DNA from: an uncultured Bacteroidota bacterium
Lineage (GTDB): Bacteria > Bacteroidota > Bacteroidia > B-17B0 > Aurantibacillaceae
Reading direction: 5' to 3'
DNA: 64,000 nt
Assembly (NCBI GenBank): GCA_937873155.1
Contig: CALMVZ010000012.1
Coordinates: forward strand, 124,001 to 188,000
Below the pieces are notes generated by a model. The model ran no database searches and was not told the DNA's origin. It saw nothing but the letters and a program-made list of their open reading frames with translations. Position numbers and translations under genes: made by a program. Shown piece after piece: positions 26,912 through 47,868 of the stretch (position 1 is its first letter; each line of letters begins with the position of its first letter).

Positions 26912-27718
26912 TTACTTAATCTTTCGTTTTACTTTTCTTATTATCTTTTTAATATCCTTTTCCAAATCGTGTTTCGCCCACCATTTGAAATCCTTTCGCG
27001 TATTTTTTGATTTAGAAATGCCAGAATGTTTTTTATTGAAAGCGCCACGGTCGTTCGGTTCCAGAACAATTTTACTGGAACTATCATCTTCATCTGAAAG
27101 CTCAACATGGCCGGTGACTACAATCACCTCAACTTCTTCGTCTTCTTCATAGCCCTTTATATTAAAAGATGTACCGAGAACCTTTGTGCGGGTACCGTTA
27201 CAGGCAATTATAAAAGGTACGTTTCCCGGAATAACTTCAAAAAATCCTTCACCATTCAAAAAAACCAATCGCTCGTTTGAATTAAATGCTTCAGGATAAG
27301 TGAGTGTTGTATTTTTATTCAAATAAACCCGGCTGCTATCCGGTAGATAAACAACCATAACGCTGTCGGTTGTTACTACTTCCACTAAAGTAGCGCCACC
27401 TGATGTTTTAAATAAAGTACTCAATAAGTAAGTGAGGCCAAGCAGTAACAAAATAGATGCAGCCATCTTTAACCAGTAACGTTTTAAAAACAATACTTTA
27501 GGTTGATTTATTTTAGCCTGAAGTTTTTGCCATTCTGTTTCTGCATCGGGAGTATAATCTCTACTTGGGTCTTCGGTATTTTCCCAAAGTTTTGAAACTT
27601 GTTTAAATGTTTGAGCATTAGAATCTGACTGAAGCCAGGAATTTAGTTCCCGGTCCTCTTCGGCGGTGATTTCGCCGGAAAGTTTTTTCGCTATCAAATC
27701 CCAATACTTCGGTTCCAT
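26912..27718 (-). CDS. FecR-family anti-sigma factor
   Basis: 268 residues. Cytoplasmic DUF4880-like head (WDLIAKKLSGEITAEEDREL), one membrane segment near 87-105 (MAASILLLLGLTYLLSTL), then the periplasmic FecR domain with VYLPDSSRVYLNKNTTLTYP and TKVLGTSFNIKGY. The usual C-terminal DUF4974 secretin-like domain is replaced by a short basic tail, so it is a compact FecR. It should hold the ECF sigma encoded 94 bp upstream until an envelope signal arrives. Confidence 0.88.
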   Translation of the reverse strand: MEPKYWDLIAKKLSGEITAEEDRELNSWLQSDSNAQTFKQVSKLWENTEDPSRDYTPDAETEWQKLQAKINQPKVLFLKRYWLKMAASILLLLGLTYLLSTLFKTSGGATLVEVVTTDSVMVVYLPDSSRVYLNKNTTLTYPEAFNSNERLVFLNGEGFFEVIPGNVPFIIACNGTRTKVLGTSFNIKGYEEDEEVEVIVVTGHVELSDEDDSSSKIVLEPNDRGAFNKKHSGISKSKNTRKDFKWWAKHDLEKDIKKIIRKVKRKIK

Positions 27719-27812
27719 AAAACTTCTGCCCTTTATATCATATCACAGTTTAAATAAACGTTACCCCTACTCATAAAATTGAGAAATGCTGAAAATAATG
27801 AAAATCAACTGA

Positions 27813-28409
27813 TTAGAAATTCCGATTGACTTGCAGAATTATTAAAAGAAGAGATAAAAAATGCAGCAGGGCTGATAGGCCGGCTGTAGCGGCAATAATA
27901 AGAAACTCGCGGGTAAGGAAAGGCTTGAGTTCTTCGCGCATGATCTCAAGGGCTTTCCCCATTTGATTTTCGACGGTTTTAACGGAAATATTTAATTGTT
28001 CAGCAATTTGTTTGTAGCGTAGTTCCTCGAATCGGCTTAATACAAAAATAACTTTGCACTTTGGAGGCATGCGATCAAGCGCTTTCTGAACCTCTGACTG
28101 TAATTCTTTTAAAGAAATATCTTGTGAAGTTTTTTCTTCATTGGAAGGCTGATATTCCTTACGGTATTTATTCAACCGGCTAATACTTTCTAAATAATTG
28201 AGCGCTGTATTTGTGGTTGCTGTGTAAAGATAACCACCAAGAGGTCGGTCAGTTTGAATTGTATCGCGAGAATTCCAAACTTTTAGAAATACATCTTGTA
28301 CAATATCTTCAGCACCTGCTCTATCATTTACAATACGGTTGGCCAGTCGGCACAGGTTTTTGTGATTAGACCTGAAAAGCTCTTCATATTGAATTGTTGA
28401 GATTGACAT
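27813..28409 (-). CDS. ECF RNA polymerase sigma factor with C-terminal hydrophobic tail
   Basis: 198 residues. Sigma region 2 (FRSNHKNLCRLANRIVND, then AEDIVQDVFLKVWNSR) and region 4 with the helix-turn-helix LRYKQIAEQLNISVKTVENQ. The last 30 residues (IIAATAGLSALLHFLSLLLIILQ) are strongly hydrophobic and could be a membrane segment, unusual for a sigma factor. First gene of an eight-gene leftward operon and presumably its own activator. Confidence 0.9.
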   Translation of the reverse strand: MSISTIQYEELFRSNHKNLCRLANRIVNDRAGAEDIVQDVFLKVWNSRDTIQTDRPLGGYLYTATTNTALNYLESISRLNKYRKEYQPSNEEKTSQDISLKELQSEVQKALDRMPPKCKVIFVLSRFEELRYKQIAEQLNISVKTVENQMGKALEIMREELKPFLTREFLIIAATAGLSALLHFLSLLLIILQVNRNF

Positions 28410-29336: not shown

Positions 29337-29344
29337 AAAATTTG
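29337..29344 (+). promoter_or_regulatory. -7-like element of the glycosidase gene
   Basis: AAAATTTG has one mismatch to TAnnTTTG and ends 6 nt before the GTG at 29351. This decides the choice of GTG over the TTG that lies inside the box. Confidence 0.35.
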
Positions 29345-29350
29345 CCAAAA

Positions 29351-30670
29351 GTGTATTCATTTTCCCACCTGAAACAGCGAAAAGGCCAAGGTTTAGTATT
29401 GGTTCTCTCTTCCGTAATTTGCCTGTCTTTTTCATTGGACCCACCCTCTGAAACAAACCAACCTTGTACTGTCACCATTAAAAATGAAGGCGGACATTAT
29501 CAATTATACCGGAATAACGAACCTTATTTCATTAAAGGCGCCGGCGGCTATAAATACTACGAAAAACTGAAAGAATGCGGAGGGAACTCTGTACGTCTTT
29601 GGAGCACAAAAGGCGCGAGGGAATACATGGATAGGGCCCATGCCCTCGGATTAACTGTTACCCTGGGATTAGAACTTGGTCATGAAAGGAAAGGTTTTGA
29701 TTATAATGATAAAAAAGCCGTTAAAGAACAATTCGAACAGGTAAAAAAAGATATTCTCGAATTCAAAGATCATCCCGCCCTTATCATGTGGGGTATCGGC
29801 AATGAGGTGGATCAGTTCGCAAATAATTATAAAGTATGGGATGCCGTGAATGATATTGTAAAATTCATTCATGAAACAGATCCTAAACATCCAACCACAA
29901 CAATGCTTGCAGGTGTTCCGATTAAACACATTAAAGAAATTAAAAAACGTTGTCCTGACCTTGACCTTTTATCAATTAACGCATTCAAATGGATCGCACC
30001 TGTAAAAAAAGATATCACTGCTGCGGGTTGGACGGGACCTTATCTGATCGGTGAATGGGGTGCTTCAGGATATTGGGAATCAGAAAAAGTACCCTGGGGA
30101 ACGTTCATGGAAGAAACCAGTACACAAAAAGCAGAGGTTTGCCAGGAAAGATATAAAGCCGGAATAAAAGATAATACTGAACGCTGCGTTGGATCTTACG
30201 TTTTTTATTGGGGATGGAAACAAGCCCGTACTCATACCTTATTAAGCTTATTTTCTGAGGACGGACAGGAAACAGGGATCTTAGATATTTTATGTAAAGA
30301 ATGGACCGGAAAAGAAAGATCAAACCGCGCGCCAACTATTTTACCAATTGGTATCGATAACTTTCAAACCCATAAAGGTGTTTATTTAAAACCTTCTTCA
30401 CAACATATGGCTTATACAGACGCAAAAGATGCTGACGGTGACAAACTCTATTATTATTGGGAGATCTATCACGAAAGCACGGAGAAGAAAGAAGGCGGAG
30501 ATATGGAAGCAAAACCAAAAGCCATTACTGACCTGATCACAAACGGGAAAGATAAATCTTTATCTTTTAAAACGCCGGCAAAAGAAGGTCCATATCGTTT
30601 ATATGTTACTGTTTATGATGGAAACAATCACATTGCTACTGCGAATGCTCCGTTTTACGTAAAGAAATAA
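29351..30670 (+). CDS. Secreted TIM-barrel glycosidase (GH2/GH5-like)
   Basis: 439 residues from a GTG start, with a hydrophobic export signal (GLVLVLSSVICLSFSL). The barrel carries both clan-A catalytic glutamates: E152 after Asn in GIGNEVD (acid/base) and E235 in IGEWGASG (nucleophile). The C-terminal 110 residues form an Ig-like domain. The barrel resembles the third domain of the GT2 fusion at 33089, so the two may act on the same glycan. Its 3' end overlaps the convergent LtaS-like gene by 35 bp. An alternative TTG start at 29342 is less likely. Confidence 0.78.
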   Translation: MYSFSHLKQRKGQGLVLVLSSVICLSFSLDPPSETNQPCTVTIKNEGGHYQLYRNNEPYFIKGAGGYKYYEKLKECGGNSVRLWSTKGAREYMDRAHALGLTVTLGLELGHERKGFDYNDKKAVKEQFEQVKKDILEFKDHPALIMWGIGNEVDQFANNYKVWDAVNDIVKFIHETDPKHPTTTMLAGVPIKHIKEIKKRCPDLDLLSINAFKWIAPVKKDITAAGWTGPYLIGEWGASGYWESEKVPWGTFMEETSTQKAEVCQERYKAGIKDNTERCVGSYVFYWGWKQARTHTLLSLFSEDGQETGILDILCKEWTGKERSNRAPTILPIGIDNFQTHKGVYLKPSSQHMAYTDAKDADGDKLYYYWEIYHESTEKKEGGDMEAKPKAITDLITNGKDKSLSFKTPAKEGPYRLYVTVYDGNNHIATANAPFYVKK

Positions 30671-33092
30671 GTGTATTCTTTTTTGGCGCCAGGGCTGCAT
30701 TCATGAATTTATTATGGTACTGGATCCAAGCTGCTAATTTGGCGTGGCAGATTTCTGTTTCAGAAGGAGTGGCGATGTTTTGTGTTTCGAAAGGATCTTT
30801 TTTCAGATCATAAATTTCGGTGAGATCCTTGCTGGCATTGTAAATGTATTTTTTATTTCCTTCCCGGTAACCATATAAATAATCTGACCAGGGGCAGAAA
30901 AAATAAGTTCTGTTATTTCTAACCGGTGAAAATAAATTTTCTCCCTGCCACTCTTCTGCTCCTTCTGATCCTATCATTGCCATAATGGTCGGTGCAACAT
31001 CAATCATTCCGCCTATTTGTTCTTTTCTTTCAGCTTTGAATCCAGGATTAATAAATATCAACGGGATATGTAAATTCTCCTCGTAAATCTTTGAACCGTG
31101 CGTGATCTGATCATGTCTTCCAAACGCTTCTCCATGATCTCCAACTACAACAACTAATGTAGATTTTGAAAGCCCGTTCGCCTTTAATTGTTTTAATATC
31201 TTACCAAGAACCATATCACTATGGTTGACAGCGTTCATATACCTGTTTAATACGGTATCATAAATCACGTAATCTTTTTCTTCTTTTCCCGGATAATAAG
31301 GATAATGTGTCTGGTATGTCCAAAGCATTCCGAAGAAAGGTTTGCTTCTGTCTTTTTTCATCCAGGTGATCAAAGCATCTGCTGCGCACTCGTCATCAAT
31401 ACCGTCTAAAGGATCCCATTTATTTCCCTGTTCAGAGAATTGTAATTTACAGGGAAGATTCTTGCAGTCTTTCATCTCATCAAATTTCCTGAAGGATAAA
31501 AATTCATCTGCTTTTTGGAAACGGCTATCACCCGAATTAAAGAAAGCGGTACGGTAACCTTTATCTTTCAATTTAGAACTTAAAGTCGGAATATTAATAT
31601 TAGGATGCTCTTGCGTTAAACTTTCATATGATAACCACGGATAAACAGAACCCAATAAACTCACCATCGATTTATTTGTAGCCGGAGCATGCGCGTAAAT
31701 GTTATCAAATACGATCGCATTCGTCAATTGTTTTTTAAGTTCCGGGGTAAGGTTATATAAAGTATCATAAGGTTGCAAATATTCTGCAGGAGTTGATTCA
31801 AGTACAACCACCAGTACATTCCTGATCTTTGCCGGAAACCCTTCTGGCATTTTGTAATCGGCTTTTATATTTCCAAATGTTCTTAAACTGTCCGGGACAT
31901 TCATTGTATATAGTTGCGGGATCTTTGTGAATGGAGAAATGGATTCCAGGAATGCTGTTACAGGATTGGCCAAACGGTCGTACTCCCAATTCTGAACAGA
32001 AATGGCTCTTTTTGCAAAGAACACATAACACAAATTCACCAAAACAAATATTACAAACGCTACTTTTCTTATGCGTACTTTTTGCATGAACCATTCGATC
32101 GCATAAACGATCAGTACGCCGGCGATCACTGCTGCACAACAAACAGCTACAACATTTAAAATATATTCCATTGAAATATTAGAAGCCATTGCTGATTTTG
32201 CTTCAGAACTTTTCAGGAAACCGGAATAATACAACCAACGGAAATTAAATGGTTTTCCCATTGTTTCCATCATCCGGATATTCAAAATTCCTGCAATTAT
32301 TGAGATGAAATTCACAAGGATCGCCATAGAAACAAAAACATACTGAACCTTACGCCGTTTTTTGAAAAGAAAGACAAGTAAAACAAAGAACAAAGTATAA
32401 CTTATCACATAAAGATGGTCATAGAATCCGGCATAGAGAACTTGCGGAAAGAACTCGATCGGCTGATAATATAATTTCCAGCTCATCAATGAAACCGATG
32501 CCCTGATCAAAAGTAATACAGCAAGAGTGATTCCCCCGCCCCCTAAAATTATTTTTAATGGTCCCGGATTTAGTCTTAGCCCTTTGAATCTATATTTCTT
32601 CACAATGTAAAATACCAAAGCCATGATTAAAATTCCTATCAATAAAGGCCACGCAAAATTCAACAATGTGAGCTGCTGTTTAGGCTGTATCTCTTTTTTT
32701 GAATCTATCATTGCAATATTATCATTAATAGCCATGGTGTGGTAATCCTTTTGCGGTTGTGTATTTGTATCCCATACATCTGAAGGCACACCACGCGGGC
32801 CTTTTGTGATCCAGAAAGTATAGTCGATCATAGTCCCAGACTTTACTTTGATATCAACAGAAAAAACACCACTTTCTTTTTCAGTCATTAAAGTATGGAC
32901 AAGATCATCTTTAATATAACTCCCGGGAGGAAGTTCATCTTTATCCATTACCTGCCAATTATTCACTCCCCAAACTAAATACACCTCACTCGCATGCTTG
33001 GCTACGTACCGGATCTCTTGATTGACCGGCTGATCTTGAGCCACACAAAACAGTGCAGTCAACAAAAAGATCAATAACATTGCTTTCTTCAT
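30636..33092 (-). CDS. LtaS/sulfatase-superfamily membrane enzyme
   Basis: 818 residues. Signal peptide, an N-terminal beta-sandwich (about 25-125, carbohydrate-binding-like), five or so membrane segments (about 150-390), then an extracytoplasmic alkaline-phosphatase-fold domain. VLVVVLESTP holds the first metal ligand, NIYAHAPATNKSMVSLLGS the expected Thr/Ser nucleophile, and VVVGDHGEAFG the DHGE metal site. Relatives move glycerol-phosphate or phosphoethanolamine onto glycans or lipids. It overlaps the GT2 fusion by 4 bp (ATGA), so both products are made together and probably modify the same polymer. Confidence 0.8.
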   Translation of the reverse strand: MKKAMLLIFLLTALFCVAQDQPVNQEIRYVAKHASEVYLVWGVNNWQVMDKDELPPGSYIKDDLVHTLMTEKESGVFSVDIKVKSGTMIDYTFWITKGPRGVPSDVWDTNTQPQKDYHTMAINDNIAMIDSKKEIQPKQQLTLLNFAWPLLIGILIMALVFYIVKKYRFKGLRLNPGPLKIILGGGGITLAVLLLIRASVSLMSWKLYYQPIEFFPQVLYAGFYDHLYVISYTLFFVLLVFLFKKRRKVQYVFVSMAILVNFISIIAGILNIRMMETMGKPFNFRWLYYSGFLKSSEAKSAMASNISMEYILNVVAVCCAAVIAGVLIVYAIEWFMQKVRIRKVAFVIFVLVNLCYVFFAKRAISVQNWEYDRLANPVTAFLESISPFTKIPQLYTMNVPDSLRTFGNIKADYKMPEGFPAKIRNVLVVVLESTPAEYLQPYDTLYNLTPELKKQLTNAIVFDNIYAHAPATNKSMVSLLGSVYPWLSYESLTQEHPNINIPTLSSKLKDKGYRTAFFNSGDSRFQKADEFLSFRKFDEMKDCKNLPCKLQFSEQGNKWDPLDGIDDECAADALITWMKKDRSKPFFGMLWTYQTHYPYYPGKEEKDYVIYDTVLNRYMNAVNHSDMVLGKILKQLKANGLSKSTLVVVVGDHGEAFGRHDQITHGSKIYEENLHIPLIFINPGFKAERKEQIGGMIDVAPTIMAMIGSEGAEEWQGENLFSPVRNNRTYFFCPWSDYLYGYREGNKKYIYNASKDLTEIYDLKKDPFETQNIATPSETEICHAKLAAWIQYHNKFMNAALAPKKNTLISLRKTEHSQ

Positions 33093-36000
33093 CTTGCTTT
33101 CCTTTCTAAAACTTTGATCGGTAACGATGCAGTTGTCACTCGGTATTCTTCCTTATCTGTAACAAATAAGTAAAGCCGATAATCTGCCGGTTCTTCCGGA
33201 ATTGTAATTTTTACTAACTGTGGGTCATCAAACTTCTCTATAACATCTACTTTATCAAAATCATCATCCTTTAATAAACGCCATTCATAATCCAGGTCTT
33301 CATTACTTTTTCCATCGGCAGTAAAGAAATAGGTCTTTCCCGGAATTAAATTCTCTCTTGTCGTTATTTTATACTCAGGTAAAGATCTACCCTTCTTTTT
33401 TGTCCATTCTTCTTTTAAAGCGAAATACGAAGGTTTAAGTCTGCCTTTATAATCTGTTAACCCGAACCACGTGAAACTTCCTTCCATTCTATCATGCCAG
33501 CAATATGCGAATCCGCCAATATTGAATCCTTTGTAACCCTGAACGTACTTCTCCCATTGATATCTATACCAATCTGATTTTTCCTGATCACTCTCTTCTA
33601 ACACAGTGTTATTTTTCTGATCATTGTATTTCGGATCCCAATAACCGCGTGGACCGAATTCAGAAACCAAATACGGACGTAATGAATCAAATTGCCATGC
33701 AACGTGATTAAGTGTACTGATCTGCTCTTTATAGTATGAATTTATCCCGATCACATCAATTGAAGGCGCCCCGTCATGAAACGCGACTAACTCGCCGGGC
33801 AATTGATATTCTTCATGTTCTATACAACTGAAAACCGGCCTCGAAGGATCTAATTCATGAATGCGCTGAGCCATCCGCTCGATCATTTGTACATATGCAT
33901 TCCTCACTTTCGTTAAATAAGGTTTTGCAAAACTATGTTTGAGCAATCCCCAGGATTCATTTCCTAACGACCAGGCGATAATAGCAGAGTGATCTTTATA
34001 CTTCAGCACTTTGCTTTCCATTTCGTTCATGTAAGCAAGAACCTTTGCAGAATCTTTATAGAAATCAATTTTAGGATCGAACCAAAAACCATAAAGAACA
34101 TTGAGATCATATTCTTCTGCAATATTCAGGACATTCCTGTCGTAAATACCATGACCATATCTCCTGATCGTATTCGCTCCCATTTCTTTGATCTTCTCAA
34201 AATCTTTCTCCACTTGTCTTCTGCTTAAAGGCATATGACCATCACGCCAATCGTGCGCAGTATTGTAAGCAACGCCTCTTATATAATATGGTCTATTATT
34301 GATCATTAATTGAAATTTACCAGGTTTCCCCATTACAAATGCCGAATGATAAATCATTTGTGATGGTCCTGAAACATTTGAAAAATCACTTCTTGAGTAA
34401 TTTTCATTCCTCAATTGTTCTTTAATGGAACTTAACGTTGTTTTTGATCTGACGCTAAAATCACAACGGGTAAGAAAAGTGTCTGTACCAAAAACTGTAG
34501 TAATAGTTTTTTCTTCGGAATAAAATATGACAGAACGGATCTCTTTATATTTTGCAGAAATACTTTTTAGCGCGTCGGAAAACCAATATGATTGGGAAGA
34601 ACCCAACACTGTGCCTAAATTTGTTATCATCACAGGTTTTTTGAATTTTCCATAAGCCTTACGGTATGGTTCATATAAACCACTGAACAGGTACCAATCT
34701 TTTGCTTTGGCATTATCAGCGTAATTCAGACAACTGACACCGATCCAGTCGACAAATTTTTCGCCTGGATAATGATCTTCATTCTTATCTGATAACGGAC
34801 ACCAAACCCAGGTCACATTTGAGATACCAAGGTTGTTGAAGAATGTATAAACATATTGCCATGCCTTTTGGAATTGTTCTCCGGTGAATTGATCTCCCGG
34901 TAAAGCTTCGAAAGTCATAAATACTGGATGTTTGTAATTCCTAAGATCAGATGCGTATTCTTTAAGGAAAGTATCGTAGTTGCCTTTACAGATCTCCCGG
35001 TACAAATTATTTTTTATTTCCTGAGGCAATACATGTGTTGAAATTGTAATGTATGGAATACCGGTCTCCTGATTGAACAAGTCAGCAGCAGGAACTTCTC
35101 CCCACTTCTGAATAAACGAGGTCACATTATTATTTATATCCTCAGAAGATCCTGCATGTTTTCCAAGATAAAATCCGCCGAACTCTTTTGGCTTGTAAAC
35201 TGATCTTTCATTCTCATCCTCTAAAATACTCACCGAACTAACAAAAATGAGAGAAAGCGCGATCATTAATACAATAACACTGTTTCTTACTAAACCATAA
35301 GCATACTGCTGGAATCTTTGAATGATCGATCCTATAAAATTCCTTACACCATTTATAAAAGGCATTTTGATACAATAATTTTGTGCCTGCATAATAAGTT
35401 TCTGCTGGCTCATTAATACAGTAAAACCAAGAATACCTGCTGTAATTAAAGAGTAAAACGCCATTGCAATACTGTAAGGTGTCCAATCGATATACAAACC
35501 ATACACAATGAAAAAACCGCACACAACTAAAACAATTATATTCGGAACACTCAGCTTTATAAAATTCTGATGCTCGTCTTCCTTTGGTGTCGGAATATAC
35601 GGTACTTTAATATTGAAAATACTGTAAACGAATCCAACTAAAAATACCCACCAGGTTGCAGTGCGCAATATTCCTCCTGCCAGATGAAAACCTCGTTCGT
35701 GTTTTTCGAGCAGCCACCGTTGACTATATAAACGGATCATCATTGAGAACAGGCACATTGGTAAGAAATAAAGTCCAAACTGACCCATATTTACTTCCCA
35801 GGGCACCTGTGCAAGTCCTAATGCAACAACGGGAATTGCGATATCAATCAGATTTATTAACCCAAACAAAAAATAAATTGGAATGCAGAAATAATGTAAT
35901 TTCTGGCGCCATGTGAAATTCTTACACAGATGAGGAAATGTACGGAACAACAATTCAAACGTTCCTCTCGACCACTTTAACTGTTGTTTGTAGTACGCTG

Positions 36001-36886
36001 ATAATGTTGCGGGCACTAAACCTCTTGAAAGAATTTCAGGAACGTATACAGATTTCCATCCCTTTGCATGCAACTGCATTGCTGTGTGCATATCTTCAGC
36101 AAGCCCCGCTGCATGACCACCTATTGAATCTAATGCAGTTCTTCTGAATGTACAATTGGCTCCAATAGCCTGAACTGTTCCATAAGTATTCATACACATC
36201 ATCATTGGCCCGTAGAAATGATAGGTTTGTTCAGCTGCGCCTCTTGCAATAAAACTTTCATCCTGGTTACCATAAGCCTGAACACATTGTACATAGCCGA
36301 TATCATGCTGTTCAAAATATGGAATGACACGATCCAAAAATTGAGGGATAGGAACGTGATCAGGATCTAAAACAACACAAAGTTCACCGGTTGCCTGTTT
36401 TAAGGCGTTATTTATATTTCCGGCTTTTGCATCCACCTTAACAGTTCTTGTCACATGTACAATTCCTAATTCCTCGCAGATCTTTTTTAATTCAGGGTCA
36501 TTTCCTTCATCGCATAAATAATTGGTGTGCGGATACGTAATACCTTTCATCGCATATAAAGTGCGAATGATCATATCACGCGGTTCACCCGGACAAGAAG
36601 TGGTCAGGACGTCGACTGTCCATTGTTTGGTCACCGTTGGTCTTTCCGGAACACTTGGGCTCCAGTAATGATACCATTCGTGCACCATTTTTGCCAGTTT
36701 AAAAAACAATGCAAACGTCAGCAACAAAAAAACGGGTGCATAACCAATATGTTCACGGTCAATGAACCAACTGAGGAAAAGAAGCATTAACGCAACGGCG
36801 CAACAGATGAGGATTCGGATTATTCTTATTTCGGACCTGGAAGGAGATTTTACTTTAACAATATCATCTTTTGTAGAAACACTCAT
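33089..36886 (-). CDS. GT2 synthase fused to a GH26-like and a TIM-barrel glycosidase domain
   Basis: 1265 residues from the ATG at 36886 (MSVSTKDDIVK); an earlier ATG at 36925 adds 13 odd residues. Two N-terminal membrane segments, then a cellulose-synthase-like GT2: DPDH, E264-D265 and Q-L-K-W305, followed by membrane segments to about 560. Residues about 590-810 look like GH26 (TWVWCP and YPGEKFVDWIG) with E660 kept at the acid/base position but N756 (MITNLG) where the nucleophile Glu should be. Residues about 860-1150 are a TIM barrel with E977 (LGNES) and E1076 (SEFGPRG). An Ig-like domain ends it. Probably makes and trims an exported glycan. Confidence 0.82.
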   Translation of the reverse strand: MSVSTKDDIVKVKSPSRSEIRIIRILICCAVALMLLFLSWFIDREHIGYAPVFLLLTFALFFKLAKMVHEWYHYWSPSVPERPTVTKQWTVDVLTTSCPGEPRDMIIRTLYAMKGITYPHTNYLCDEGNDPELKKICEELGIVHVTRTVKVDAKAGNINNALKQATGELCVVLDPDHVPIPQFLDRVIPYFEQHDIGYVQCVQAYGNQDESFIARGAAEQTYHFYGPMMMCMNTYGTVQAIGANCTFRRTALDSIGGHAAGLAEDMHTAMQLHAKGWKSVYVPEILSRGLVPATLSAYYKQQLKWSRGTFELLFRTFPHLCKNFTWRQKLHYFCIPIYFLFGLINLIDIAIPVVALGLAQVPWEVNMGQFGLYFLPMCLFSMMIRLYSQRWLLEKHERGFHLAGGILRTATWWVFLVGFVYSIFNIKVPYIPTPKEDEHQNFIKLSVPNIIVLVVCGFFIVYGLYIDWTPYSIAMAFYSLITAGILGFTVLMSQQKLIMQAQNYCIKMPFINGVRNFIGSIIQRFQQYAYGLVRNSVIVLMIALSLIFVSSVSILEDENERSVYKPKEFGGFYLGKHAGSSEDINNNVTSFIQKWGEVPAADLFNQETGIPYITISTHVLPQEIKNNLYREICKGNYDTFLKEYASDLRNYKHPVFMTFEALPGDQFTGEQFQKAWQYVYTFFNNLGISNVTWVWCPLSDKNEDHYPGEKFVDWIGVSCLNYADNAKAKDWYLFSGLYEPYRKAYGKFKKPVMITNLGTVLGSSQSYWFSDALKSISAKYKEIRSVIFYSEEKTITTVFGTDTFLTRCDFSVRSKTTLSSIKEQLRNENYSRSDFSNVSGPSQMIYHSAFVMGKPGKFQLMINNRPYYIRGVAYNTAHDWRDGHMPLSRRQVEKDFEKIKEMGANTIRRYGHGIYDRNVLNIAEEYDLNVLYGFWFDPKIDFYKDSAKVLAYMNEMESKVLKYKDHSAIIAWSLGNESWGLLKHSFAKPYLTKVRNAYVQMIERMAQRIHELDPSRPVFSCIEHEEYQLPGELVAFHDGAPSIDVIGINSYYKEQISTLNHVAWQFDSLRPYLVSEFGPRGYWDPKYNDQKNNTVLEESDQEKSDWYRYQWEKYVQGYKGFNIGGFAYCWHDRMEGSFTWFGLTDYKGRLKPSYFALKEEWTKKKGRSLPEYKITTRENLIPGKTYFFTADGKSNEDLDYEWRLLKDDDFDKVDVIEKFDDPQLVKITIPEEPADYRLYLFVTDKEEYRVTTASLPIKVLERKAR

Positions 36887-37054
36887 GCAAATCAATTTTA
36901 GTACCGCCGGCCTGCATAATAACACAGCTCCGGGTATAAAATTACTTCTGCATTCTGCGGAAACATTTTCTATTCGCTAATAGCACAGATTTGATGGTTA
37001 AAAAACTTCTTAAGAAGTGTGAAAAGAATTCGCTTGTAGGGATTTTATAACAGG

Positions 37055-43066: not shown

Positions 43067-46000
43067 CTAATTAGCCATTGGCTGTGGTTGTCCTTGCGGC
43101 ATTAATTCCTCAGCCGGAACGATCGATTGCAAACGGGTCATGAATTCTTTTTGCAAAGCTTCCTGCTTGAATTGTCCGGTTAAACCAACCAAACGGCGCA
43201 TGATCTCTTTACATTGGTTCATTTCCCTTCCAAATGCAGCGCGGTGAGCACTCTTTTGCGCATTATACACTCTTAGATCGCCTTCAAAGATATCGAATAA
43301 CTGTTTTGCTAACTCGTTTGCCCTCTTGGTTTCACCTAATTGATAATAACCCGCAGTAATTGTAAATAAAGTTGCATCGAAAGGAATATTCTCATCCGGC
43401 ATTTTCTCTAAACACAGATCAAGTATTTTTTTAGCTTTACTTTTCTTGCCTTCGGAGATCAATGCGTTCGCTAAAATTGACATTTGCATACGGAGGTTTG
43501 CAGCCATACGGTTACAGTTCTCATCTAAATTCACGCCCGGCTTATCCATGCCACCCCATAAGAATTTTTCAGTGATGTTCTTGTACATCGCCTCGGTATT
43601 TACTCTTCCTCCACCCATTTCTTCTTCTTCATTTTGTTTTACAGGCACTAAACGGAATGCCAAACCTTCCAATTGGAAATATTTTTCTAACCCAACATAA
43701 GCTTCGTTACCGGTTGTAACTGCAAAATAGATCGGGCGTTTCCAGTCTGTGTGTGCTAAAAGGTCTAACACCATCAGATCATTTTTAGTAATGGCACCGC
43801 GCGGAATATTCCAACTGATGTTCTTAACAATACGTCCTGTATCTTTTACAGAGACAACTTTATTTTTCATTACCGCTGCAGAATCAACTGGTAAATAGAA
43901 TTGTTTTGTAGGTAAATAATCTAAATATCCATTTCCGTATTCGAATTTATTTGCAGGATCATCACTCTCAACAAACTTGATAGCTTGCTTCAAATTCATA
44001 GGACCGGTGTTCTTATCAAATAAATAAACCACTTCACGTTTGCGGCATAACAATTTTTCTTCAGGAATTGTGAATGGTACCGGCGCAGATTCGTAAGCAG
44101 CGCGGCGCATCTGACGGATATACCAATCGGTTTGCAATAAACTTAAGTTACAAACGCGGACATCTGTACGGATACCTTCAACTTCCTGGGCGTACCAAAG
44201 GGGGAAAGTGTCATTATCACCATTCGTAAATAAGATCGCGTTAGGTGCGCATGATTCTAAATAGTTAATTGCAACATCACGTGATAAAGTACGGATAGAA
44301 CGATCGTGATCATCCCAACCACCTGCAGCCATTAAACTCGGACCAATCAAACCGATACAGGTTGCAATGATGGCAGCCATTTTAATATTTGTCTTCTTGC
44401 TCAAGAAATCATAGAGGAACAGAACACCAAAACCAATCCAGATCGCGAAGGCATAACAGGATCCTGCATAAGCGTAATCACGTTCACGCGGCTGATAAGG
44501 CGGTGTGTTCAGGTAGATCACTAAAGCTAATCCAGTCAAAAGGAATAAAGCTCCAACGATCCATGTTCCTGCCTTGCTGTTCTTGTAATGGAACCAGAAT
44601 CCTAATAGACCTAAGATGAATGGAATTCCATAGAAATAGTTTTGCGCTTTGTTGTTTTTCATCAAATGCGTTTTCAAACTACTATCTGAATCCAATAAGA
44701 AATCATCAACAGCTTTTATACCTGTAACAGCATTTCCTTCCAAAGTATTATTGGTCATACCTTGTATATCATTCTGTCTTCCGATATAATTCCACGCAAA
44801 ATAACGGAGCCACATATACCGCACCTGGTAATTAAAGAAGAAACGCATATTTGCCCCGAAAGTCGGGATTTCTACCGATTCGCTCTCGCCTGTTTGTTCG
44901 TTCACCCTGTTAACAGTCCTGTGATTATTAGCTACATCTCCCCAATAACGGTAAGCTGCTTCATGGTGTGATTGACTGCTATACATACGAGGGAATACTG
45001 TACAGAATTCTTCTTCGTAAACCGGGATATCATTCTTACGGTCGTCAGCTACAATATATTTTTTTGATTTTTCGTCCTTTATATAAATAGGGTCTCCATC
45101 CTTGAATTGCGAACTTGGTTTTGTAGGAGCGTTATAATATTGTCCGTAGCCGATCGGCCAGTCGCCATACTGTTCACGTAATAAATACGATAGCATGTTC
45201 GGGGCGTTCTCAGGATCATTCTCATCCATAGGAGGATTTGCCTGGGAGCGGATCACTAAAACGAAGAATGATGAATAACCAATAAGAATAGTGGCTAAGC
45301 TCATCATGATTATATTAAGATTATTGTATTTAGCTTTGATCTTAGAGATACCGTAAAGAATGGCACCGAAAGAAAGAGCGCGGGTGAACATGGCGCCGGG
45401 ACTTGGAGCGGCGATCACAACAATAAGTGCAAAAACTATAAGAGAATAAAAGCCGAGTTTATAATGGGATTCCTTTTTACTTGTGGTATACATGATAAAT
45501 CCTGCTAAAGAAATGATCATTAAACCGAAGTATACCATTGTTCCGGAGCTAAAGCCCATATGGAAGTGGTTGGTAAAGTAAACCTCCACATCTGAAACGA
45601 ATTTTACGATCTTAGGGATGATCATTGACTGAACTATGCCTAATATCAGTACCGAGATGATACCTGCAATAAAAAAGCTTTTCCAGGTAAATGTGTACTT
45701 TTTGAAATAGTATATAAAACAGATAGCAGGGATAACAAGTAAGTTCAATAAGTGGACACCTATAGAAAGACCCATTAAATAAGAGATCAAAACGATCCAG
45801 CGCATAGCGCCTGTAGGGTTGCTGTCATCTTCTTCATCCCATTTTAAAATGGCCCAGAATACAACTGCGGTAAAGAATGCTGACATCGCATAAACTTCAC
45901 CTTCAACAGCTGAGAACCAAAAAGAGTCTGAAAAAGTGTAAGCTAAAGCTCCAATGGCACCTGCGCCAAGAACAGCATATTGTTTCCCGATGTTGAATTC

Positions 46001-46336
46001 CTCGCCTTTTTTAACAATAGCCTTTAATGCCAGGCGGGTGATACTCCAGAATAAGAATAAAATTGTAAATGAACTGCACAGGGCCGACATTATATTGATC
46101 ATCATGCCTGCATTAGCCGGATCTCCTCCTGCAAAAAGGGCGAAAAAGCGGCCTATTAACATAAAAAACGGGGCTCCCGGCGGGTGACCAACTTCCAGCT
46201 TGTACGCGCATGCAACGTATTCACCACAATCCCAGAAACTAGCAGTAGGTTCGATGGTTGCGCAATAGGTGAATGTTGCAATGGCAAAAACAAGCCACCC
46301 GATAAGGTTGTTAAGTTTTTTAAATGCAGGTGTCAT
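43067..46336 (-). CDS. DUF2723 membrane protein (GT-C, protein O-mannosyltransferase-like)
   Basis: 1089 residues from the ATG at 46336 (MTPAFKKLNN); an earlier in-frame ATG at 46378 is near the divergent tRNA promoter. N-terminal membrane half with PTASFWDCGEY, the acidic motif of this GT-C group, then HPPGAPFF. The C-terminal half is soluble with GWDDHDRS, FTNGDNDTFPLWYAQE and TPR-like helices. In Bacteroidota this family is linked to surface protein glycosylation. Head of the four-gene leftward cluster. Confidence 0.85.
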   Translation of the reverse strand: MTPAFKKLNNLIGWLVFAIATFTYCATIEPTASFWDCGEYVACAYKLEVGHPPGAPFFMLIGRFFALFAGGDPANAGMMINIMSALCSSFTILFLFWSITRLALKAIVKKGEEFNIGKQYAVLGAGAIGALAYTFSDSFWFSAVEGEVYAMSAFFTAVVFWAILKWDEEDDSNPTGAMRWIVLISYLMGLSIGVHLLNLLVIPAICFIYYFKKYTFTWKSFFIAGIISVLILGIVQSMIIPKIVKFVSDVEVYFTNHFHMGFSSGTMVYFGLMIISLAGFIMYTTSKKESHYKLGFYSLIVFALIVVIAAPSPGAMFTRALSFGAILYGISKIKAKYNNLNIIMMSLATILIGYSSFFVLVIRSQANPPMDENDPENAPNMLSYLLREQYGDWPIGYGQYYNAPTKPSSQFKDGDPIYIKDEKSKKYIVADDRKNDIPVYEEEFCTVFPRMYSSQSHHEAAYRYWGDVANNHRTVNRVNEQTGESESVEIPTFGANMRFFFNYQVRYMWLRYFAWNYIGRQNDIQGMTNNTLEGNAVTGIKAVDDFLLDSDSSLKTHLMKNNKAQNYFYGIPFILGLLGFWFHYKNSKAGTWIVGALFLLTGLALVIYLNTPPYQPRERDYAYAGSCYAFAIWIGFGVLFLYDFLSKKTNIKMAAIIATCIGLIGPSLMAAGGWDDHDRSIRTLSRDVAINYLESCAPNAILFTNGDNDTFPLWYAQEVEGIRTDVRVCNLSLLQTDWYIRQMRRAAYESAPVPFTIPEEKLLCRKREVVYLFDKNTGPMNLKQAIKFVESDDPANKFEYGNGYLDYLPTKQFYLPVDSAAVMKNKVVSVKDTGRIVKNISWNIPRGAITKNDLMVLDLLAHTDWKRPIYFAVTTGNEAYVGLEKYFQLEGLAFRLVPVKQNEEEEMGGGRVNTEAMYKNITEKFLWGGMDKPGVNLDENCNRMAANLRMQMSILANALISEGKKSKAKKILDLCLEKMPDENIPFDATLFTITAGYYQLGETKRANELAKQLFDIFEGDLRVYNAQKSAHRAAFGREMNQCKEIMRRLVGLTGQFKQEALQKEFMTRLQSIVPAEELMPQGQPQPMAN

Positions 46337-46417
46337 ATAATAAATAAGATAAGTTGCGAAGTTAACAAAATGCCCCATAAAGGTGCGGTTTTAAGAATCA
46401 AAATTTTTAAGAAATTA

Positions 46418-46563: not shown

Positions 46564-46597
46564 ACAAAACCCCCTATGAAACACGAGGGGGTTTTGT
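46564..46597 (+). terminator. Terminator just inside the element
   Basis: ACAAAACCCCCT and AGGGGGTTTTGT form a perfect 12-bp stem with a 10-nt loop and a following TTT. It ends the tRNA-Gln transcript in the integrated state, replacing the native terminator now displaced to 55145. Confidence 0.8.
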
Positions 46598-46609
46598 TTT
46601 TAACCACTT

Positions 46610-46638
46610 TTTGTTTTTGGATATTTTTAGTACCTTTG
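46610..46638 (+). promoter_or_regulatory. Promoter of the integrase gene
   Basis: TTTG at 46610-46613 and TACCTTTG at 46631-46638 with a 17-bp gap. The leader to the ATG at 46678 is about 35 nt. Confidence 0.55.
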
Positions 46639-46677
46639 GGATACCTTTTAATACACCCTTTAAAAAAGGTATCACAA

Positions 46678-47868
46678 ATGAGAGTCCTATTTACACCTGT
46701 TTTCAACCGTAAACACAAACTCAGTAAAAAAGGTCGCGCACCTATTGAGATAAGAATCTACCAAAACCGTAAGCGTAAATTTATTTCTACAGGCATCTCC
46801 ATCAAACCTAATCAGTGGGACGCAAAAAACGAGGTGGTTAATGATAAACACCCTGATTATGAGTCATTAAATTATGACATTAAAAGCCTCATTACCAAGT
46901 TTGAAAATCAAAAGACGTTACAGGTCATTAAGGGCAAAAGTTTTTCTATAAACCAAATACAACATAAAAAAGGTCACAAAGTCACCCCATCGTTTATTGA
47001 ATTTATAAGGAACGAGGTTGCAGATAACGCCGAGATCAAACCAAAAACCAAAACAAGCCACTTAAACACCGTTAATAAACTGTTAGAATATAAATCCGGA
47101 GCCGATATCCTGATTGGGGACGTTGACTTTTCTTTCGTCGCTGGTTTTATTAATTCCTTAAGAAAACAAAAGCTTGCGGTTAACACAGTACATAAGCAGT
47201 ATAAAAATCTTAAAAAATATATTGAATTGGCAATTAACAAGGGGCTTTATGAGGGGAACAATCCGTGTAAGTCAAAAGAGTTAGTCGTTCGTCCGGAGGT
47301 AACTAAAAGGGATTTTATCACTATAGACGAAATCAAAAAGATAGCAGATTTAAATCTTACTAAATTCGATGAGAGATTTACATGGGTACGGGATATGTTT
47401 TTATTTGGGTGTTATACGGGGCTCAGAATAAGCGACGTCGTAAATTTAAAAACTGAATACATTATTAAGGATGTTGACGGGTACAAACTACAGTTTAAAT
47501 CTATAAAAGTTGATAAAGATGTTTCGCTTCCGTTGCGTGATTTGTTTCCTGTTCCAAAAAAGAAACTTTCTCGACCTGAAACAATACTTGAAAAATATTA
47601 CGACAAAAAGCACACACACTTATTTCCTGATATTACCGAGCCTTTTATCAACAGGCACTTAAAGGGGATTGGTGAAGAAGCAAAAACACCAATTAAGCTG
47701 ACGTTCCATGTATCGAGGCACAGCTTCGGAAATTACATGGCGACAAAAATACCATTGCCCCAATTAATGTATTTAATGCAACACAGCGATATTAAAACAA
47801 CAATGATGTATGTGAATACTAAAGCAAACGAGGTAAAAAAAGGATTACAGAAAGTTGATTGGGATTAA
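46678..47868 (+). CDS. Tyrosine recombinase/integrase
   Basis: 396 residues from the ATG at 46678 (MRVLFTPVFNRK); an earlier ATG at 46576 lies in the terminator loop. Arm-binding N-terminal domain with LSKKGRAPIEIRIYQ, SAM-like core-binding domain (about 110-215), and a catalytic domain with R250 (TGLRISD), H344-x-x-R347-H348, H369 (QHSD) and Y378. All catalytic residues are intact. It catalyses integration into and excision from tRNA-Gln. Confidence 0.93.
   Translation: MRVLFTPVFNRKHKLSKKGRAPIEIRIYQNRKRKFISTGISIKPNQWDAKNEVVNDKHPDYESLNYDIKSLITKFENQKTLQVIKGKSFSINQIQHKKGHKVTPSFIEFIRNEVADNAEIKPKTKTSHLNTVNKLLEYKSGADILIGDVDFSFVAGFINSLRKQKLAVNTVHKQYKNLKKYIELAINKGLYEGNNPCKSKELVVRPEVTKRDFITIDEIKKIADLNLTKFDERFTWVRDMFLFGCYTGLRISDVVNLKTEYIIKDVDGYKLQFKSIKVDKDVSLPLRDLFPVPKKKLSRPETILEKYYDKKHTHLFPDITEPFINRHLKGIGEEAKTPIKLTFHVSRHSFGNYMATKIPLPQLMYLMQHSDIKTTMMYVNTKANEVKKGLQKVDWD

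Follow-up and report, generated by a model that had tools for sequence, protein, structure and literature searches.

The periplasmic glucans of Proteobacteria influence both the homeostasis of the envelope and the interaction with hosts. Here, a locus of an uncultured Bacteroidota bacterium (Aurantibacillaceae) encoding a GT2-GH26-GH158 fusion synthase, an LtaS/OpgB/OpgE-type phosphotransferase, and a stand-alone GH158 enzyme is compared with the systems that it resembles. All coordinates are positions in the window, the whole stretch of 64,000 nucleotides analyzed (contig CALMVZ010000012.1, 124,001–188,000, assembly GCA_937873155.1). Periplasmic-glucan groups have been classified (PMC10514313). 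For Pseudomonas, a cyclic beta-glucan bearing glycerol phosphate has been connected with the NdvB or "Orphan" GT2-GH17 proteins (PMC10237404); the glucan of P. aeruginosa is partly glycerol-phosphorylated, and an MdoB homologue has been proposed as partner (PMC10237404; PMC10514313). Like the fusion, these proteins (group 4, Pseudomonas and rhizobia) combine a BcsA-like GT2 part devoid of PilZ with membrane helices and a periplasmic TIM-barrel glycosidase or transglycosylase. NdvB, however, carries GH17 at the N-terminus, whereas the fusion carries GH26 and GH158-type domains at the C-terminus and thereby lacks the GT2-GH17 pairing of group 4; in addition, the fusion locus belongs to Bacteroidota, and its phosphotransferase gene directly overlaps the synthase gene and carries a module similar to carbohydrate-binding modules (CBMs). 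A genome-wide GH17 search gave no match in the window's genome and no signal with the controls either. OpgH/OpgG/OpgB/OpgE of E. coli (group 1) follow the same logic of GT2, periplasmic glucanase, and threonine-dependent phosphotransferase, but with a beta-1,2 backbone, the GH186 enzyme OpgG, and separate genes for GT2 and glucanase; OpgG was absent from the window's genome in a search with a positive E. coli control. The BcsA cellulose synthase complex shares with the fusion locus the GT2 core, the gating-loop region, and a companion endoglucanase gene; the fusion differs by having no PilZ domain, QQLKW instead of Q(Q/R)xRW, and two tethered glycoside hydrolase domains, and none of bcsB, bcsC, and bcsZ was recognized among its scanned neighbors. 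The endo-beta-1,3-glucanase BuGH158 of Bacteroides uniformis (PMC7157763) resembles the stand-alone and fused GH158 domains in barrel, Ig part, and catalytic residues; it belongs to a catabolic utilization locus, whereas the enzymes described here stand in a biosynthetic context and in separate lineages. Because the same logic has been reached with other glycosidase families, the synthase family belongs to neither the NdvB nor the Opg family. It appears to correspond to the periplasmic-glucan machinery of E. coli, Pseudomonas, and rhizobia while having been assembled independently.

With moderate confidence, we read the three genes as a module that makes a phospho-substituted beta-glucan working like the osmoregulated periplasmic glucans. 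More tentatively, and short of an even chance in our estimate, Bacteroidota may own a further class of beta-glucans, phospho-substituted and perhaps cyclic, whose machinery was assembled independently, with interchangeable tethered glycoside hydrolases, one active and the other decaying into a glucan-guiding pseudo-enzyme, and with a CBM-bearing OpgB/OpgE-like decorator. The module comprises the following features:

33089–36925, minus strand: gene of the GT2-GH26-GH158 fusion synthase, 1278 amino acids from a GTG or 1265 amino acids from the likely ATG at 36886
35222–36886, minus strand: BcsA-like processive GT2 part with transmembrane helices, residues ~14–568 (motifs, phmmer, hydropathy)
34349–35200, minus strand: catalytically degenerate GH26 domain, residues ~576–859 (AlphaFold2 model, mean pLDDT 81; Foldseek; VIA)
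33092–34327, minus strand: GH158-type TIM barrel with C-terminal Ig-like part, residues 867–1278 (homology, catalytic alignment)
33089–33092, minus strand: ATGA stop/start overlap of the fusion and phosphotransferase genes
30636–33092, minus strand: gene of the LtaS/OpgB/OpgE-type phosphotransferase, 818 amino acids, with T472, E432, D652, and H653
32688–33041, minus strand: CBM20/25-like (starch-binding-type) N-terminal module of the phosphotransferase, residues 18–135 (AlphaFold2 model, mean pLDDT 83)
29342–30670, plus strand: stand-alone GH158 gene, 442 amino acids, with an N-terminal hydrophobic signal-like stretch and N154, E155, and E238

The original prediction, made from the DNA sequence, described a single 1265-residue chain of a GT2 synthase, a GH26-like domain, and a further glycosidase. 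This chain was confirmed: the ATG at 36886 is residue 14 of the 1278-residue open reading frame (ORF), homologues begin near the same point in the alignment, and Pfam recognized GT2 (PF13641, 7e-23), GH26 (PF02156, 2.3e-6, above the cut-off), and a GH2-type TIM barrel (PF02836, 5e-16). Relatives with 42–59% identity occur in seven loci; the ORF lists contain the full-length fusion in six of these, and a contig end cuts it in the seventh (L008). A second search added the genomes G034 and G090 (G033 and G044, which it also returned, are those that contain L006 and L005). The fusion is a real gene and no artefact, because homologues recur across Bacteroidota; a sequencing or assembly fusion, the caveat raised with the prediction, was rejected on the full-length homologues in six genomes of the first search and the further ones. 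Among 395 genomes of the class (the class draw; G denotes genomes, L loci, and G000 the window's genome), 20 are counted as synthase genomes, the criterion being a match of E 1e-100 or better that covers the GT2 part; G422 was left out, having a distant GT2 (E 2e-32) that neighbors a GH26 gene (L101). Thirteen of the 20 encode the three-domain architecture, four GT2-GH26 (G341, G399, G417, and, in two copies, G117), two GT2-GH158 (G258, G285), and one separate GT2 and GH26 genes (G319). Outside the class, three-domain fusions were found in G519 and G572.

The nearest solved GT2 of the fusion is BcsA (phmmer 4e-38), and the motifs CDE, DPD, [AST]ED, and QQLKW as well as a VPYIPTPK-type gating loop are present in 28 of 28 alignment rows, with QQIKW replacing QQLKW in one of them (L099). 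The fusion failed the curated cellulose-synthase test (TIGR03030, 173 bits against a cut-off of 699), and the Pfam scan found no PilZ domain. Hydropathy analysis revealed an extra hydrophobic helix (residues 550–568) behind a stretch (506–547) that has five positively charged residues and none with a negative charge; on this ground, the GH26 and GH158-type domains are predicted to lie on the periplasmic side. The linkage could not be fixed from the GT2 tree, because its references are on long branches. A synthase-dependent exopolysaccharide, that is, a long beta-glucan exported across the outer membrane with the GH158 enzymes as BcsZ-like clearing hydrolases, is unlikely in our judgement: a secretory hydrolase beside a BcsA-like GT2 mirrors bcsA-bcsB-bcsZ, and in L042 and L100 genes of TPR proteins lie ahead of the split GT2/GH26 genes, but the absence of PilZ argues against it, as does the lack of an outer-membrane export gene among the neighbors scanned, a weak argument because most neighbors in L082–L099 were outside the Pfam scan.

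The middle domain, predicted to be GH26-like with Asn (N756) in place of the nucleophile Glu, has the GH26 fold in the AlphaFold2 model. Its best structural match is the lichenase CtLic26 (Foldseek 1e-16; VIA Z 24–25); VIA gave Z 25.3 against 2bv9 (root-mean-square deviation 2.8 over 246 residues), Z 21–22 against xylanases, and Z 20 or less against mannanases. N756 is N769 of the 1278-residue ORF (motif VMITNLGT), and seven of the eight other full-length homologues in the first alignment have Glu in this column. The predicted substitution thus stood but was incomplete, as the acid/base is lost as well (the HE motif is replaced and Leu occupies the Glu column). The two Glu that GH26 requires are missing in the window and present in L014, L084, L089, L091, L092, L129, and L130; GH26 proteins encoded apart (L042, L098, L099, L100, L101, L008, L113, L115) also keep both catalytic residues. 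CtLic26-type activity, that of the nearest fold, is beta-1,3-1,4-glucanase. The GT2 BgsA of Sinorhizobium makes a mixed-linkage beta-(1,3;1,4)-glucan, and a similar product, with the lichenase-like GH26 and GH158 as matching processing enzymes, would agree with the proximity of the GH26 domain to CtLic26 and of the fusion GT2 to cellulose synthase. We consider it doubtful: in the GT2 tree, the presumed BgsA and BcsA form a group (99/96) that excludes the fusion family, a weak argument given the long branches, and BuGH158 strongly prefers laminarin over mixed-linkage glucan (PMC7157763).

The third domain had been described as a TIM-barrel glycosidase with both Glu intact. Both are kept, and the family is now specified as GH158-type. 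A profile of 15 fused domains matched BuGH158 (6pal) at 2e-39; the homology spans the barrel and the Ig part and extends to a second GH158, the assignment being by sequence. The catalytic Asn-Glu and Glu of GH158 (N136/E137/E220 in BuGH158) are present in the fused and the stand-alone enzymes, and the fused pair N989-E990/E1089 is invariant in the first set of full-length homologues. With an E limit of 0.05, GH72 glucanosyltransferases were matched by 14 of 15 fused domains and two of 12 stand-alone GH158s, which is a weak hint at transglycosylation.

The state of the two tethered catalytic pairs was scored from a 28-row alignment, residue states being our reading of it. Eight rows were dropped (L008, cut by the contig end; L093–L097, third domain unrecognized; L098–L099, fused GH26 unrecognized), which left 20 three-domain fusions. 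At least one pair is intact in 19 of these: only GH158 in 13, the window included, only GH26 in four (L089–L092), and both in two (L014, L084); both are broken in L085 (Fisher's test on pair states, p = 0.014, uncorrected for kinship). L090 was scored as GH26-intact although Pro replaces the His before its acid/base, and some broken sites (L086, L087) sit in poorly aligned stretches. The GH158 domain of L091 has Asp for Glu at the acid/base and may not be fully dead, because Glu is retained in the nucleophile column. L129 and L130, two fusions of genomes that do not belong to the class, came up after the count and are reported separately; like L091, both combine an intact GH26 pair with Asp for Glu at the GH158 acid/base, and both fit the pattern. 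In the GT2 tree, the two activity states form two groups; L091 stands by itself, and the position of the members with both pairs intact is unresolved, close to the root of the larger group. The well-supported branches require at least two changes of each activity label. The synthases L093–L097, in which GH26 is the only tethered hydrolase, have a degraded GH26 too, and a stand-alone GH158 lies close by. Most simply, both tethered enzymes would act on the same chain, and one would be enough. Active and dead versions of both tethered domains can be compared across the family, which forms a natural series in this respect. The fusion at L085:7828–11814 (G376) is an apparently decaying copy, with an in-frame stop, both hydrolase domains catalytically broken, and a stand-alone GH158 following.

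As predicted, the fusion gene is coupled by ATGA to the gene of an enzyme then called LtaS/sulfatase-type. The overlap is real and the enzyme is of the LtaS/OpgB type. A sulfatase was rejected on its motif: the site reads PATNKS, with Thr in 13 of 13 aligned family members, and the formylglycine motif of sulfatases (CxPxR, with Cys or Ser) is lacking. The protein consists of a hydrophobic signal-like N-terminus, the CBM20/25-like domain, about six hydrophobic stretches (146–359), and an alkaline-phosphatase-superfamily domain (PF00884, 8e-44), in which T472, E432, D652, and H653 align with E. coli OpgB and OpgE. The curated NCBIfam cut-offs were missed for LtaS (68.7 bits against 970) and phosphoglycerol transferase I (57.4 against 572). 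All 50 Foldseek matches listed for the N-terminal module are CBM20/CBM25 domains or amylase-type enzymes (best E 7e-5, TM by query 0.39–0.58), the latter presumably carrying such a domain themselves. Pfam returned only CBM53 below the cut-off, and a profile search of PDB sequences gave none at E up to 1, so that the model search alone produced the matches. The module is absent from the phosphotransferases of L113, L114, L116, and L117. The phosphotransferase at L043:6819–9641 has two tandem CBM-like N-terminal modules.

In the class draw, in which two candidates were scored per genome, the phosphotransferase family is bimodal: nine of 395 genomes have a match at E 1e-160 or better, the next following at 2.5e-40. 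All nine, from seven families, also encode the synthase (20/395); the naive hypergeometric probability is 3e-13, a significance that kinship inflates. The gene adjoins the synthase in three carriers (G000, G403, G090) and lies apart in six; outside the draw, L003, L004, and L009 have it beside the synthase and L008 within the same cluster. In L113 and L115, its neighbor is a GH26 gene similar in kind to the one found after the synthase in L098/L099. That the enzyme is a mere neighbor that modifies lipid A or a teichoic-acid-like polymer would suit the many acceptors known in the superfamily and the six separate carriers, two of which have very fragmented genomes. The co-occurrence across seven families, the ATGA overlap, the glucan-binding-type module, and the gene's position in L113/L115 make this rather improbable.

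The original prediction also included a convergent secreted glycosidase resembling the third domain, and this is what was found: the stand-alone GH158, with its signal-like N-terminus, overlaps the 3' end of the phosphotransferase gene by 35 bp. Its phmmer matches are 9oro (3e-82) and BuGH158 6pal (1e-56); no publication on the 9oro structure set came up in literature searches. Among the 19 fused-synthase genomes of the class draw, 18 (all but G192) have this gene next to the synthase, counting those in which only the phosphotransferase gene or, for L085, the detached end of the synthase itself lies between; in two further genomes, G033 and G044, it is located away from the synthase. For comparison, 12 GH158s of synthase-free genomes were used, 10 from the 47 class-draw genomes with GH158 and no synthase and two from another search. 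In a first tree, from which three duplicate rows and the extra copies of synthase genomes were left out, these 12 formed one clade (100/100) with all 27 synthase-associated GH158s outside. A second tree of 49 rows added eight extra copies distant from the synthase (L132–L139) and the copies beside L129 and L130: the 12 synthase-free and eight distant copies formed one group (100/97), and all 29 synthase-associated GH158s fell outside it. The latter are not one clade; their two main groups mirror those of the GT2 tree. GH158 therefore seems to be split into biosynthesis-associated and other lineages. Characterized GH158 enzymes of Bacteroides are catabolic (PMC7157763), but a catabolic laminarinase placed here by chance is very improbable given the adjacency in 18 of 19 genomes, the separation in the trees from the synthase-free GH158s and the eight extra copies, and the lack of a SusC/SusD-like match among the nine window proteins scanned, which leaves a utilization locus without support.

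For the phospho-glucan module, the following course is proposed. The GT2 part would polymerize UDP-glucose and extrude the chain via its own membrane channel, as its family suggests. In the window's lineage, the dead GH26 domain may serve as a chain-binding guide, while the intact GH158-type domain would cut, and probably transglycosylate, the emerging beta-(1,3)-containing chain and release chains of limited length, possibly cyclic ones. The phosphotransferase would bind the glucan through its CBM20/25-like module, whose fold is taken from the model, and move a phospho-alcohol (glycerol phosphate or ethanolamine phosphate) via Thr472 from a presumed phospholipid donor to glucose hydroxyls as putative acceptors. 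The secreted GH158 may trim or remodel the product, a beta-glucan that would be made, processed, and given its phospho-substituents at the inner membrane and would probably stay in the periplasm. A beta-glucan is favored, and a beta-(1,3)-containing one since both GH158-type barrels, fused and stand-alone, are homologous to the beta-1,3-glucanase BuGH158. The original prediction of a phosphate-decorated exported glycan held in part: phosphate decoration is likely because the Thr and metal ligands match OpgB/OpgE, the module is of a glucan-binding type, and the enzyme co-occurs with the synthase in nine of nine genomes, whereas export and glycan identity are unsettled, periplasmic retention being at least as likely as export. 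That such a glycan would be new to Bacteroidota agrees with searches of open-access titles and abstracts, which listed no such phospho-glucan system for the phylum, but a phospho-glucan has already been linked to a GT2-GH fusion in the case of Pseudomonas NdvB. The synthase family provides concrete genes for testing a periplasmic-glucan system in Bacteroidota, along with candidate beta-glucan processing enzymes and a candidate glucan phosphotransferase.

Several points weigh against this proposal. CBM20/25 modules typically bind alpha-glucans, not beta-glucans. The phosphotransferase has a low identity to OpgB/OpgE (22–23%), and its top NCBIfam model is choline-sulfatase rather than LtaS, with 84.6 bits where the cut-off is 433. 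The GH72 scores are weak (25.0 bits against 25.9 in the window), and all 15 fused domains match the GH2 barrel, in the window with 62 bits compared with 25 bits for GH72; for the L084 domain, the GH2 barrel (28 bits) falls below GH72 (31 bits). The processing domain could hydrolyze instead of transglycosylate. The GT2 sequence does not define the linkage, as PMC10237404 likewise says for its own family. Eleven of the 20 synthase genomes in the class draw yielded no close phosphotransferase among the two candidates scored per genome, so phosphate decoration is not universal, and MBOAT/AlgX-type genes neighbor the synthase elsewhere. MBOAT O-acyltransferase genes adjoin the synthase in L087 (with an AlgX-like gene) and L088 and the phosphotransferase in L117, which suggests O-acylation as another candidate decoration.

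Promoter and terminator scans stayed near the shuffle level. In the remaining window, an ECF (extracytoplasmic function) sigma factor gene adjoins a gene with a FecR domain (anti-sigma type) at 26912–28409 on the minus strand. A protein of 1103 amino acids with a TMEM260-like protein O-mannosyltransferase domain (PF11028, 1.6e-75) is encoded at 43067–46378, and a tyrosine recombinase with an Arm-DNA-binding domain at 46576–47868. Elsewhere in the genome, contig C13 of G000 (L040:9559–11400; L041:6342–9935) encodes a second GT2 synthase of 613 amino acids and, about 20–25 kb away, two GH26 proteins, and is perhaps another polysaccharide locus. Both of these GH26 proteins keep the two catalytic Glu, and one has a Por secretion tail.

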